Origin: Geothrix sp.
GTDB lineage: Bacteria > Acidobacteriota > Holophagae > Holophagales > Holophagaceae
Direction: 5' to 3'
Length of the DNA: 48,457 bases
Assembly: GCA_030681515.1 (NCBI GenBank)
Contig: JAUXSE010000062.1
Location: 1-48,457 of the forward strand
The position numbers were made by a program, and so were the translations under genes. The notes beneath the pieces are model-generated. The model saw nothing but the letters and a program-made list of their open reading frames with translations, ran no database searches and was not told where the DNA came from. Shown piece after piece: positions 20,884 through 40,822 of this stretch. The first letter of the stretch is position 1. The number at the start of each line of letters is the position of its first letter.

Positions 20884-23496
20884 CTACTGGAGCAGCGCCT
20901 TCACCTGCTGGAGGCGCTGCTCGCGTTCCTCGGCCTGGCCCCGCAGCTTGGCCACGGCGGCTTCGGGGGCCTTGGTGACGAAGCTATCGTCGGCCAGGCG
21001 GGCGCGCAGCGGTTCCAATTCCTTTTCCAGTTTGGCCCGTTCCTTTTCGAGCTTGGCCTGTTCGGCGACGGGATCCTTGAGGCCCGCCAGCTCCAGCGCC
21101 ACCGTGCCGCCCGCCACGACGGACACGACTCGCGTGGGCGTGGCGAGATCGTCCTTCGAGAAGGTGACGGATTCCAGCCGGGCGATGGACTTCAGTGCCT
21201 CGGTGAAGGGCTCCAGCTCGAACATGGAACAGAAGGCGGGAACGCGTTTGGCGGGATCCACACCCTGTTCGGCCTTGAGGCGCAGAAAGGCGGACAGGAC
21301 TTCCTGGAAGCGGGGGATGATCGTGGTGTCGCCGCCCTGGACCTGAAGGACTTTCTCATCCATGGGCCAGGATCTCAGAGCCAGCAGAGCTGGCTCTGAG
21401 ATAGGTAATCGCTGCGCGATTACTGCTTCGTGAATTTCCTCTGTCAGGAACGGCACGAAGGGATGCAGGGCCCGCAGCAGGATGTCCAGGAACTGCAGAA
21501 TGGCGGCCTTCTGGCCCGGCGTGCCGCTCAGCAACTGCACCTTGGCCAGCTCGATGTAGGTGGCGCAGAAGTCGTCCCAGACTAAGTGGTACAGCAGATC
21601 CGAGGCCTCATGGAACCGGAACTCCTCCAGGGCCTTCGTGACCGCCGACAAGGTGTCCCTCATCTTTTTGATTAACCAGAATTCGGCCTCGCCGAATTCT
21701 GGCACCGTCGCCAGCGTGATGGATTCATCAAGATTCATTTGGACAAACCGGGACGCGTTCCAGAGCTTGTTGCAGAAGTTGCGGCTGGCTTCGAGGCGCG
21801 CGGTGCTCATGGCGATATCGGTGCCCGGAGCGGCCATGATGGCCAGGGAGAAGCGCAGGGCGTCCGTGCCGTACTCCTCCATCACTTCCAGCGGATCAAT
21901 GACGTTGCCCTTGGTCTTGCTCATCTTCGCGCCGCTGGCATCGCGCACCAGGCTGTTGAAGTAGACCTTGCGGAAGGGCACCTCGCCCATCCAGGTGAGG
22001 CCCGCCATGGCCATGCGCGCCACCCAGAAGAACAGGATGTCGTAGCCCGTGATGAGCACGCTGGTGGGGTAGTAGCGCTTCAGCTCAGCGCTTTCATCAG
22101 GCCATCCGAACACACTGAAAGGCCACAGCGCCGACGAGAACCACGTATCCAACGTATCCGGATCCTGAATCAGTTTTCCATCTCCGCATGCGCAGCATGC
22201 GGAGGGCGCCTCCATCTCCACATGGAGCTCCCCGCAAGACGCACAGGTCCAGGCGGGGATGCGGTGGCCCCAGACCAGCTGGCGGCTGATGCACCAGTCC
22301 TGGATGTTGGTGAGCCAGTGCGCCCAGACCGCCGCGTGATGCTCGGGCGTGAACTGGATGGCGCCGCTCTGGACGGCCTCCAGGGCCTTGGCGGCGGCCT
22401 CCTTCACGTCCATGAACCACTGTTCGCTGACCAGGGGCTCCAGTACGGCGCCGCTGCGGTCGCTGAGCGAGATCTTGTTGACGTAGTCCTCGACCTTCAC
22501 GAGGAAGCCCTGTTCCTCCAGGTCAGCCACGACCCGCTTCCGCGCCTCGAAGCGGTCCAGGCCCGCGTAGACGCCAGCCTCAGCGGTCATCTTTGCATCG
22601 AAGCCGATGATGGTGATGGAGGGCAGGTTCAACCGCTGGCCGGCGGCGAAGTCGTTGGCGTCATGGGCGGGCGTCACCTTCACGCAGCCCGTGCCGAAGG
22701 CGGGATCCACGAAGCTGTCCGCCACCACGGGGATCTGCCGGCCCGTGAGCGGATGATTCATGAGCTTGCCGATCATGCCCTGGTAACGCTCGTCATCGGG
22801 ATGCACAGCCACGGCCGTATCCCCCAGCATGGTCTCGGGCCGGGTGGTGGCCACCACCACATCGCCGCTGCCGTCCGCCAGCGGATAGCGCAGGTGCCAG
22901 AGCTTGCCCCGGCGCTCTTCGTATTTCACTTCCAGATCGCTGAGGGCGGTCTGGAGCGCGGGATCCCACTGGATCATGCGGGGGCCGCGGTAGATGCGCC
23001 CGGCCTTGTAGCTTTCCACGAAGACCTTGCGCACGGCCTTGTTCAGCGAAGGATCCAGCGTGAAGCGGTTGCGGGTCCAGTCCACGGAGCAGCCCATCCG
23101 CCTCAGCTGATGCTCGATGGCGCCCTGGTTCTTCTCCTTCCAGTCCCAGATGCGCTGCTCGAAGGCCTCGCGGCCCAGCTGATGACGGTCCGTGCCTTCG
23201 GCCTTGAGCTGGCGTTCGACCATCATCTGCGTGGCGATGCCCGCGTGATCCGTTCCGGGCACCCAGAGGGCGTCGTAGCCCTGGGCCCGCTTGAAGCGCG
23301 TGAGCACGTCATGGAGGGTGTTCACCAGCGCATGGCCCATGTGCAGGTTGCCGGTGATGTTGGGCGGCGGGATCACGATGGACCAGGGTTCCTTGCCACT
23401 GTCTGGCGCCGCCTCGAAGGCCCTGGCTTCCTCCCATACCGCATACCAGCGCGTCTGCGCCGTCCTGAAATCGAACGCCTTGTCCATTTCGCGCAT
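20884..23496 (-). CDS. valS: Valine--tRNA ligase
   Basis: 870 aa class Ia synthetase that charges tRNA-Val. Seen: PPPNITGNLHMGHAL with the HIGH box at ~52-55, GTDHAGIATQ, DTLDTWFSSALWPFS, KMSKTKG near ~520, paired CxxC motifs (CASCGE and CCACGD) suggesting a bound zinc, and the C-terminal Lys/Glu-rich coiled-coil arm. The second of two nearby ATGs is preferred because AAGGA lies 5 nt before it; the other start is at 23502. Length is near family normal. Oddity: four perfect GC-NNN-GC hairpins lie inside the gene (near residues 434, 602, 694 and 703), apparently at variable surface segments. A fifth sits just upstream. Confidence 0.97.
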   Translation of the reverse strand: MREMDKAFDFRTAQTRWYAVWEEARAFEAAPDSGKEPWSIVIPPPNITGNLHMGHALVNTLHDVLTRFKRAQGYDALWVPGTDHAGIATQMMVERQLKAEGTDRHQLGREAFEQRIWDWKEKNQGAIEHQLRRMGCSVDWTRNRFTLDPSLNKAVRKVFVESYKAGRIYRGPRMIQWDPALQTALSDLEVKYEERRGKLWHLRYPLADGSGDVVVATTRPETMLGDTAVAVHPDDERYQGMIGKLMNHPLTGRQIPVVADSFVDPAFGTGCVKVTPAHDANDFAAGQRLNLPSITIIGFDAKMTAEAGVYAGLDRFEARKRVVADLEEQGFLVKVEDYVNKISLSDRSGAVLEPLVSEQWFMDVKEAAAKALEAVQSGAIQFTPEHHAAVWAHWLTNIQDWCISRQLVWGHRIPAWTCASCGELHVEMEAPSACCACGDGKLIQDPDTLDTWFSSALWPFSVFGWPDESAELKRYYPTSVLITGYDILFFWVARMAMAGLTWMGEVPFRKVYFNSLVRDASGAKMSKTKGNVIDPLEVMEEYGTDALRFSLAIMAAPGTDIAMSTARLEASRNFCNKLWNASRFVQMNLDESITLATVPEFGEAEFWLIKKMRDTLSAVTKALEEFRFHEASDLLYHLVWDDFCATYIELAKVQLLSGTPGQKAAILQFLDILLRALHPFVPFLTEEIHEAVIAQRLPISEPALLALRSWPMDEKVLQVQGGDTTIIPRFQEVLSAFLRLKAEQGVDPAKRVPAFCSMFELEPFTEALKSIARLESVTFSKDDLATPTRVVSVVAGGTVALELAGLKDPVAEQAKLEKERAKLEKELEPLRARLADDSFVTKAPEAAVAKLRGQAEEREQRLQQVKALLQ
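21372..21402. repeat. Perfect 14-bp-arm palindrome inside valS (loop AGA)
   Basis: Arms 21372-21385 and 21389-21402 are exact reverse complements around a 3-nt loop, with apex GC-AGA-GC. On the coding strand it encodes ISEPALLALR, in a segment between conserved blocks of the anticodon-binding domain. Confidence 0.85.
21405..21423. repeat. Perfect 8-bp-arm palindrome inside valS (loop TGC)
   Basis: Arms 21405-21412 and 21416-21423 with apex GC-TGC-GC, only 2 bp from the preceding palindrome, forming a back-to-back pair of about 52 bp. Confidence 0.75.
21676..21702. repeat. Perfect 12-bp-arm palindrome inside valS (loop CTC)
   Basis: Arms 21676-21687 and 21691-21702, apex GC-CTC-GC. It encodes PEFGEAEFW on the coding strand. 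Its 27 bp is a multiple of three. Confidence 0.85.
22182..22204. repeat. Perfect 10-bp-arm palindrome inside valS (loop GCA)
   Basis: Arms 22182-22191 and 22195-22204, apex GC-GCA-GC. It lies between the two CxxC motifs of the zinc-like knuckle. Confidence 0.8.
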
Positions 23497-23524
23497 TGCC
23501 ATCCTTAGTCTTGGCTTTTCCTGA

Positions 23525-23551
23525 CTCCAAATCGGCGTTGCCGATTTGGAG
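23525..23551. repeat. Perfect 12-bp-arm palindrome upstream of valS (loop GTT)
   Basis: Arms 23525-23536 and 23540-23551, apex GC-GTT-GC, about 30 bp upstream of the valS start on its 5' side. It has the same apex rule as the in-gene palindromes but a different arm sequence. It could act as a leader hairpin. Confidence 0.8.
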
Positions 23552-27971: not shown

Positions 27972-27985
27972 TCCTTCTCCGTCCC

Positions 27986-28020
27986 AAAGAAAAGGCGGCC
28001 CACCGGGCCGCCTTTTCTTT
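27986..28020. terminator. Bidirectional intrinsic terminator
   Basis: A perfect 16-bp stem (27986-28001 with 28005-28020), loop ACC, GC-rich centre, with A-rich 5' and T-rich 3' outer ends. It works on both strands and serves the cold-shock gene and the convergent membrane-protein gene at 28036. Confidence 0.92.
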
Positions 28021-28035
28021 GGGGTCGCCTCGAAT

Positions 28036-29213: not shown

Positions 29214-30581
29214 ATGCTCCTGATCTCGCCACCCGCCCTCCAGGCGCCCGACATGAACGAGGGGGACCGCCCGCTCCCTCGTGCACCCCACGTAGTGATC
29301 GGGCAAAGCCCGATCACTACGTCTGCCCCCGCCAGCGAGCCCCTTTCACTGGACCTGTCGGGCGCCCTTTCCCGTGCCCGGGCCGAGAACGCCATGCTCC
29401 GCGCCGCCCAGGCCCGGGTGGACGAGCGCCGTGGCCTCATCACCACCACCCGGGCCGATGCCTTGCCGCAGCTCACGCTCATGGGCGACTTCACCCGGGT
29501 GCGGGATGTCTCCATCCTCAACAGCGGTTTCGCGGACAGCGCGGCAAGGTTCGGCCTGACGCCGGATTCCCTGGTGGGCGCCCGCAGCATCTACACCAGC
29601 CAGGCCAACCTGACGCAGCCCCTCTTCTACTGGGGCAAGCTGGGCACCGCCGTGGACATCGCGATGATGGGCGAAAAGGAGGCCGCGCTGGCCTACACGA
29701 CCTCGGAACTGGATGTCCTGCACGGCGTCGCCAGGGCCTACCTGACCGTTCTATCGGCTCAGGCGGAGCAGGAGGTCATCGAAAGCCGGCGGAAGACCGC
29801 CGAGCAGTTCGTATCGGACGTGAAGGCCAAGCTGGAGGCCCAGACCGCCACCGAACTGGATCGCCTGCGCGCCGAGAGCGAGCTGCTGGCCGTGATCCCC
29901 GAATCGCTCCAGGCCGAGGCCCAGGTGAAGCGGGCCATGGAAGTCCTGAACGGGCAGCTGGGGCTGGATCCCAGGACGCCGGTCGCCCTCGCGGAGCTGG
30001 GGCAGCCGGAACCGGCGACCAGGCCCGCGGGCACGGAGCGCAGCGAGCTCGCGCAGCTGAAGCAGCAGGAAGCGATGTACCGCGCCAATGGAAAAATCAT
30101 CACCTCGGATCTGCGCCCCAAGTTCGACCTCAGCGCCAGCTACGGCTACCAGGCGGGCCAGACGGACCACCTCTTCAAGGAGCCCTACGACACCTGGAGG
30201 GTGAGCGTCACCATGAAGTTCCCGGTCTTCGACGGGCTGCGCAGCTCGGGCAAGCGGGCCCAGAACACGGCCCAGCTCGAGCAGGTCAAACAGATGCGCC
30301 TGGATCGCGAGCGATCCGTCGCCATCGAGCAGAGCACCGCCGACCGCGAACTGGAGAAGGCCGCCGCCCTGCGCGTGGCGGCCCGGAAGGCCCACGATGC
30401 CACCGTGGAAGCCCTGCGCATGAGCCGCGAAGCCTTCGACCAGGGACTCATCACCTCCCTCGACCTGCTGCTGGCGGAGCGCACCGAGCGCCAGGCGGAA
30501 AGCCAGCGGCGCCGGGCCGAACTGGGCCTATGGGCCGCCCGCTTTGACCAGCGGCGCGCCCTCGGGCTGCCGCCTCTCTGA
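29214..30581 (+). CDS. TolC-family outer-membrane efflux channel
   Basis: 455 aa. Two OEP repeats (about 50-240 and 260-450) are predicted to be mostly long helices (LSRARAENAMLRAAQARVDERRG; VSVTMKFPVFDGLRSSGKRAQ), as in trimeric efflux ducts. The N-terminus is odd: the signal-like stretch is short (MLLISPPALQA), followed by a segment encoded partly by a perfect 33-bp palindrome (29290-29322; VVIGQSPITT). Export may use this weak signal, or the palindrome may have disturbed it. It forms the outer part of the tripartite pump with the next two genes. Confidence 0.92.
   Translation: MLLISPPALQAPDMNEGDRPLPRAPHVVIGQSPITTSAPASEPLSLDLSGALSRARAENAMLRAAQARVDERRGLITTTRADALPQLTLMGDFTRVRDVSILNSGFADSAARFGLTPDSLVGARSIYTSQANLTQPLFYWGKLGTAVDIAMMGEKEAALAYTTSELDVLHGVARAYLTVLSAQAEQEVIESRRKTAEQFVSDVKAKLEAQTATELDRLRAESELLAVIPESLQAEAQVKRAMEVLNGQLGLDPRTPVALAELGQPEPATRPAGTERSELAQLKQQEAMYRANGKIITSDLRPKFDLSASYGYQAGQTDHLFKEPYDTWRVSVTMKFPVFDGLRSSGKRAQNTAQLEQVKQMRLDRERSVAIEQSTADRELEKAAALRVAARKAHDATVEALRMSREAFDQGLITSLDLLLAERTERQAESQRRRAELGLWAARFDQRRALGLPPL
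29290..29322. repeat. Perfect 15-bp-arm palindrome in tolC-like N-terminal codons (loop AAA)
   Basis: Arms 29290-29304 and 29308-29322 are exact reverse complements around AAA, with apex GC-AAA-GC. At 33 bp it adds a whole number of codons. It is the longest member of the GC-NNN-GC palindrome set in this window. Confidence 0.9.
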
Positions 30582-40770: not shown

Positions 40771-40822
40771 CGGGCTGCAGCCCGGGATCACTTCCGGCCA
40801 TGCCGGAAGCCGCCTTCGGCGG
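40771..40822. repeat. Cluster of three palindromes
   Basis: A 14-bp palindrome centred on CTGCAG (40771-40784); an 8-bp-arm hairpin with apex GC-CAT-GC (40791-40809); and a 5-bp-arm CCGCC-TTC-GGCGG hairpin (40810-40822). They are back to back in non-coding DNA; the second follows the GC-NNN-GC rule seen in valS. Confidence 0.65.

Follow-up and report, generated by a model that had tools for sequence, protein, structure and literature searches.

How does a single coding gene come to hold four perfect short hairpins, with a fifth standing just upstream of it? The question is raised by valS, the gene for valyl-tRNA synthetase, in a 48,457-nucleotide stretch of Geothrix sp. DNA (GenBank assembly GCA_030681515.1, contig JAUXSE010000062.1), hereafter the window. 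The window is one contig of a 3.2-Mb draft genome that is Geothrix-like (Holophagaceae). Its valS (positions 20884-23502, minus strand; 872 amino acids; an open reading frame [ORF] with Pfam domains tRNA-synt_1, Anticodon_1, and Val_tRNA-synt_C) has its closest named relatives in Geothrix and other Holophagaceae, within the Acidobacteriota. The five hairpins, p1 to p5, are probably quasipalindromes that were perfected in place by template switching during replication, a reading to which we would give a probability of roughly 0.64.

All five have a three-nucleotide loop and the apex GC-NNN-GC, and as DNA each forms one hairpin on folding, with energies from -6.2 to -15.8 kcal/mol and z from -4.1 to -8.1. 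GC-closed DNA triloops are stable. On the minus strand, an inverted-repeat scan places p1 at 21372-21402 (arm 14, loop AGA, coding for ISEPALLALRS; -15.8 kcal/mol, z -6.2), p2 at 21405-21423 (arm 8, loop TGC, coding for VIAQRL), p3 at 21676-21702 (arm 12, loop CTC, coding for PEFGEAEFW), and p4 at 22182-22204 (arm 10, loop GCA, coding for SACCACG). The noncoding p5 (23525-23551, minus strand; arm 12, loop GTT) lies between a hemerythrin-domain gene and valS, 22 bases upstream of the first valS ATG. A first-pass annotation of this DNA had listed five perfect inverted repeats with these arms, loops, and apices, and all are recovered where it put them; the arms differ, as it said, and share no common sequence. 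It had also placed four of them in an essential gene, apparently in variable segments. Four do lie in valS, but only p1 and p2 fall in variable sequence: p3 encodes PEFGEAEFW, a conserved motif of the protein, and p4 falls in a segment with a Cys pair. An intrinsic terminator test found no T run adjoining the 3′ side of any of p1 to p5 on either strand.

One answer to the question would be chance under protein constraint, in which repeated motifs such as EFGEAEF and SACCAC happen to spell palindromes. Keeping the protein and permuting the synonymous codons of valS 20,000 times, with arms at least as long as the observed one counted at the same center, the observed arm was reached 0, 1, 95, and 0 times for p1, p2, p3, and p4, respectively. 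As many draws from the codon usage of the genome reached it 0, 0, 35, and 1 times. When the whole gene was shuffled, one loop-3 hairpin with an arm of at least 10 appeared in 14 of 2,000 runs and more than one in none, against three observed. The earlier judgment that such hairpins are unlikely by chance is borne out by these shuffles, which almost never reach p1, p2, or p4 and seldom reach p3. Chance fares best at p3, whose core follows from EFGEAEFW written in common codons except for CCA, and it is contradicted at p1, p2, and p4.

Codon usage points the same way. Rare codons are used in p1 (TCA, CCA, AGA, and GCT twice) and p2 (GTA, CGA, and TTA); as shares of their own amino acids, the codons at the hairpin sites include TTA at 0.2%, AGA at 0.8%, GTA at 2.0%, TCA at 2.2%, GCA at 2.8% (used twice), CGA at 3.2%, GCT at 3.5%, and CCA at 4.1%. 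Codon preference at the valS hairpins is overridden by something acting at the nucleotide level. This use of rare codons, together with the occurrence of several perfect stems at one center (see below), also speaks against chance, which we regard as very unlikely. Rare-codon islands (n = 140) show no general coincidence with hairpins. Among hairpins, mean codon scores are lowest for loops of 2 to 4 (-0.07 to -0.18), loop 8 also giving -0.07.

Were the palindromes brought in from elsewhere? Across 37 aligned valS genes (that of the window included; excluded were L048, which has an internal stop, L040, L041, and loci with fewer than 2,300 bases of valS), frame and length are kept at p1 to p3, a single codon is missing at p4 in four genes, and no hairpin-sized insertion is found at any of p1 to p4. 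The suspicion that the palindromes might be insertions falls away, as sequences of relatives can be aligned through these sites with no indel the size of a hairpin. Copies of a mobile or palindromic element, of the kind of Rickettsia palindromic elements (RPEs) or repetitive extragenic palindromes (REPs), do exist elsewhere in this genome (CTTCCGGC-NNN-GCCGGAAG; CGGGC-AAA-GCCCG). Their insertion into valS is nevertheless contradicted for p1 to p4 by the missing insertions and the lack of a common arm sequence, and the eight exact CTTCCGGC copies among the matches listed are all intergenic; this origin is extremely improbable. The first-pass annotation had argued for a process rather than copies of one element. 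That view stands, template switching giving the best fit to the comparison, but its variant of hairpin capture or insertion does not fit the alignments.

In relatives the corresponding positions carry an imperfect repeat instead, which became perfect with no arm being inserted, as is characteristic of quasipalindrome correction. Among the 37 genes, p1 is perfect over all 14 pairs in its own genome only (the next best has 13), p2 is perfect in 6, p3 in 14, and p4 in 10. At p2, the six genes with the perfect stem, and no others, have GTA as the valine codon, and the p2 loops of different species, GCA and TGC, are mutual reverse complements. At p4, three different perfect stems are found among the relatives. 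Of 2,597 loop-3 centers in valS, surveyed over 44 rows (some of them partial), p1 to p4 are alone in having a perfect 9-bp stem in at least one row. Upstream, perfect loop-3 stems of 12 to 14 bp occur at p5 in 6 of 40 sequences; the core ATCGGC-NNN-GCCGAT recurs, and the outer stems differ between species. As separate observations, the 3′ end of valS carries an inverted repeat with a longer loop (20890-20922; arm 11 bp, loop 11 nt), at whose center 9 of 44 rows have perfect 9-bp stems, and a small intergenic triloop palindrome at 2686-2704, GTATCGGC-GGA-GCCGATAC, has a core similar to that of p5.

Both p1 and p2 are part of a protein variant that occurs patchily, and exchange of valS segments among Geothrix species might have spread a ready-made p1-p2 segment. 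The two hairpins are patchy on the valS tree, even between the sister tips formed by the window and L008, and residues are linked (VIAxRLPxSEPALLALR versus MMDGRLPAGEPxLLAQR), as such exchange would predict. However, synonymous codon identity in the p2-p1 block of the nine haplotype-A sequences is 0.67, against 0.73 in the rest of the gene; with the block no more alike than the remainder, there is no sign of recent exchange. Exchange would also leave the palindromy itself unexplained, and we consider it highly improbable.

Sites of the same kind are found in three further genes, identified by Pfam as XPB-helicase-like (L203), ksgA-like (L137), and thiF-like (L199), for which the best 29 of 44, 41, and 43 relatives were compared. 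The XPB-like site has 11 of 11 pairs in its own genome only and 5 to 7 of 11 in all 29 relatives compared. Its left arm departs from the majority by a serine codon change from AGC to TCT and a silent glycine change, leaving the protein as it was, and is in its own genome the exact complement of the right arm. The site is also the densest window of bases unique to this genome in the gene (three, against at most two elsewhere), although for a single tip on a long branch. At the ksgA-like site, four different perfect 9-bp stems share a fixed center in 10 of 30 sequences. The thiF-like site, again with one center, has four different perfect stems of 11 bp, unlike one another in the outer two pairs, in 5 of 30 sequences, and 10 of 11 pairs in none of the 30. 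Here changes appear in both directions: in the own genome and L321 the left arm departs from the majority, with an Ala-to-Ser change, and in L315, L312, and L307 it is the right arm, with a Glu-to-Ala change.

Substitutions made in place, fixed centers, alternative perfect stems, rare codons, and amino acid changes are thus all observed, and template switching could bring them together in one sequence of events. In single-stranded DNA, a weak inverted repeat whose short loop is bordered by GC would fold; a stalled nascent 3′ end would fold back, copy a few bases of the opposite arm in place of the template, and return. One arm would become the exact complement of the other, regardless of codon usage or of the effect on the protein. 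Such events, recurring at these hot spots with now one arm and now the other as the template, would extend and restore stems and leave different perfect stems in different species. Because all branches are long, templating by mutation, and with it the polymerase mechanism and mutation rather than selection as the driver, is something we infer from these sequences rather than something shown. The own genome has both sbcD and xseA, and their loss is therefore no explanation of the palindromes. Across Geothrix, sbcD is patchy, being found in 30 of 47 genomes and, among the 30 best, in 21, and xseA is above the cutoff in 45 of 47.

A more specific version of this proposal would have the Geothrix lineage possess triloop-specific, GC-anchored template switching strong enough to override codons and amino acids in widely shared genes and to re-perfect the same hairpins time and again, independently from species to species, with valS as a natural hot spot that mimics compensatory RNA evolution. 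We put this forward tentatively and on balance doubt it.

Might the hairpins instead be functional RNA structures? They could act in the valS messenger, in pausing, stability, or feedback, and be held by selection with compensatory changes. Such an explanation would suit four in-gene centers and one upstream of the same gene recurring throughout the family, with p3 and p4 as the most and second most paired loop-3 centers of valS, and compensatory changes are seen at p4 and at p5, where the perfect stems have different outer pairs. Several of these observations also weigh against template switching. The recurrence of p3 and p4 across the family resembles constraint; the first-pass annotation had named conservation in distant valS genes as grounds for doubt, and this applies in part, to p3 and less strongly to p4, both family-wide on coding motifs. 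Likewise, the p5 hairpin reappears a short way before the start while its stems vary, a pattern that would fit a functional leader hairpin and a self-maintaining hot spot alike. Single events on the long branches are undatable, and the three extra genes were chosen for having a palindrome in their own genome.

Two controls bear on covariation, and the second adds to these difficulties. When right arms were dealt out anew among the sequences, a control in which relatedness remains, perfect stems were observed more often than after dealing out at p1 (inner 12 bp; 4 versus 0.95), p2 (7 versus 2.2), p3 (15 versus 10.9), and p4 (12 versus 4.2), and also at the ksgA-like (10 versus 2.0), thiF-like (5 versus 0.45), and XPB-like (1 versus 0.04) sites. 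The other control takes relatedness into account by setting each site's excess of paired cells (10 bp) over dealt-out arms beside that at the other centers of its gene. None of the 861 other valS centers is as high as p4, a result that suits a structured RNA; the excess of p1 is reached by 86 of them, that of p2 by 39, and that of p3 by 56. In the other genes the excess is reached elsewhere at 33 of 761 (ksgA-like), 38 of 972 (thiF-like), and 11 of 572 (XPB-like) centers. Covariation is outstanding at p4 only and moderate at the other sites, so that more of the argument is carried by the fixed centers, the rare codons, and the stems, perfect and alternative.

On their face, the mismatches left in near-perfect valS stems also lean toward RNA and away from template switching, with 37 G-T against 3 A-C (and 45 C-T), as RNA pairing might give. 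This count is confounded by codon choice, since p3 alone supplies 25 of the 37, through the choice between GAA and GAG. An RNA function further has to contend with a p2 that is perfect in only 6 of 37 genes and with many relatives that lack p1 and p2. The thiF-like stems were perfected by way of amino acid changes, similar sites occur in unrelated genes, and the window has no Rfam match. We consider a messenger structure unlikely, although it deserves to be taken seriously, most of all for p5.

Template switching must also be weighed against the genome-wide background. The own-genome sample covers 1,307,404 of 3,197,944 bases, the window included, and 1,098 genes were called in it by a simple scoring of codons. 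A few hairpins counted as "in-gene", namely at the beginning (L133) or the end (L205:8606) of a called gene, may therefore lie between genes. In called genes, loop-3 hairpins with arms of at least 8 number 46, against 39.2 after synonymous shuffling, and those with arms of at least 10 number 14, against 2.0; with the GC apex and arms of at least 8 there are 15, against 6.2. Three of the 14 long-arm hairpins are in valS and three come from a separate repeat family (window 29290, L126:6568, and L133:19759), which leaves eight. For arms of at least 10, loops 2, 3, and 4 are in excess (6, 14, and 7 versus 2.0, 2.0, and 1.6), loop 5 weakly so (5 versus 2.8), and loops 6 to 12 not at all. The excess that the first-pass annotation proposed to look for therefore exists, but it is modest and confined to long arms, so a uniform genome-wide process does not explain the valS cluster.

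That cluster is itself a difficulty for template switching. valS is the sole called gene with four hairpins of loop 3 to 8 and arm at least 8 (one other has three, all with loop 4), and it holds 4 of the 15 in-gene GC-apex sites, no other sampled gene having more than one. A mutational process does not predict such clustering, and the number of sites in valS, four coding and one upstream, is unaccounted for by template switching. Among 41 Holophagaceae loci, which were retrieved by valS and share ancestry, valS and the 60 bases upstream, 107 kb in all, contain 45 hairpins with loop 3; the remaining 641 kb contain 23. Two relatives sampled at 200 kb each have no loop-3 excess, with 1 versus 1.0 in their longest ORFs, a further point against the proposal; loop 4 is in excess there (12 versus 2.0). 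For loop 3 and arms of at least 10, there is no clear excess in 607,839 bases of longest ORFs from other phyla (2 versus 1.3), and the longest ORFs of the Holophagaceae loci, valS removed, give 5 versus 1.8. The corresponding figure for the own genome (25 versus 5.2) is not used, as longest ORFs probably take in intergenic stretches. Homologous sites with at least two different arms number seven for loop 3 and 0 to 3 for other loops, in loci that were preselected for loop-3 palindromes.

Other palindromes of the window are of different kinds. At 40791-40809 and elsewhere stands an intergenic REP-like family, CTTCCGGC-NNN-GCCGGAAG, often with a second small hairpin beside it; there are 23 copies in the own genome, and the family is present in 29 of 47 genus genomes, at 0 to 27 copies each. 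It was considered as part of the same phenomenon and rejected, being a separate family that had inflated the first genome count. A suspected shared flank, GGAG..GGAAAAGCC, behind some CTCC..GGAG hairpins was dropped as well, only 2 of 21 GGAAAAGCC sites having such a hairpin. A separate palindromic repeat at 29277-29327 (CTCGTGCACCCC, then GTGATCGGGC-AAA-GCCCGATCAC, then a CGTCTG region) lies inside an outer-membrane efflux (OEP) gene, at its start as called; its pattern is found at 5 places in the own genome and in 14 of 47 genus genomes, with at most one mismatch. Unlike the valS sites, it is possibly an in-gene element insertion. Between two convergent called genes, a triloop palindrome at 27983-28023, with 19-bp arms and internal A and T tracts, looks like a bidirectional terminator.

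If template switching is the correct reading, these genes hold a natural bacterial record of strands copying themselves inside widely conserved genes. Rare codons would be forced by complementarity, and the amino acid changes would need no adaptive explanation. Covariation of paired bases in coding DNA, the usual sign of RNA structure, could then stem from mutation alone. Cultured Geothrix strains would allow the question to be tested at the fixed centers in valS and in the ksgA-like and thiF-like genes.

How do these sites compare with known systems? RPEs are in-frame inserted copies of related sequence within ORFs. The valS palindromes resemble them in lying within ORFs, but the earlier comparison with RPEs goes no further, there being neither insertion nor shared sequence at the valS sites. 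REPs and bacterial interspersed mosaic elements (BIMEs) consist of many intergenic copies of one conserved palindrome, unlike p1 to p4, which are coding and differ in their arms. Perfect inverted repeats of proteobacteria are reportedly more conserved between species than expected, and Lavi et al. are said to have proposed preferential correction for them in 2018. The Geothrix sites would go beyond those repeats in having different perfect stems at one center, and in the Acidobacteriota.

Closer parallels come from template switching itself. In Escherichia coli, it makes quasipalindromes more perfect (PMC7202029); the systems include lacZ reporters and the thyA hot spot (PMC7202029, PMC6357072). 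The Geothrix sites are alike in that an imperfect repeat is perfected in place and in having hot spots; unlike the E. coli events, which are measured experimentally, they are deduced from species comparison, as 8- to 14-bp stems fixed in chromosomal genes. For RNA genes, another study has template switching both creating and maintaining hairpins, with multi-base compensatory changes and an influence of loop length, 4-nt loops being enriched and 3-nt loops depleted (PMC8794818). Against those hairpins, the Geothrix sites stand out as lying in protein genes and having 3-nt loops.

In yeast genes, template switching homogenizes arms, with non-synonymous changes, parallel recurrence, and shorter spacers; in one example, PIM1, 10-bp arms enclose a 3-nt spacer that is flanked by GC (Abraham and Hazkani-Covo 2021, PMC8604942). 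On the present reading, the Geothrix genes share these features, with arms made alike inside coding sequence; spacer inversions are documented in yeast, whereas here p2, with its loops GCA and TGC, is the only candidate. Our limited literature search recognized no publication on such palindromes in Geothrix. The mechanism is already known, and what these genes add is a multi-species, multi-allele natural record in bacteria, which makes them a good new case.

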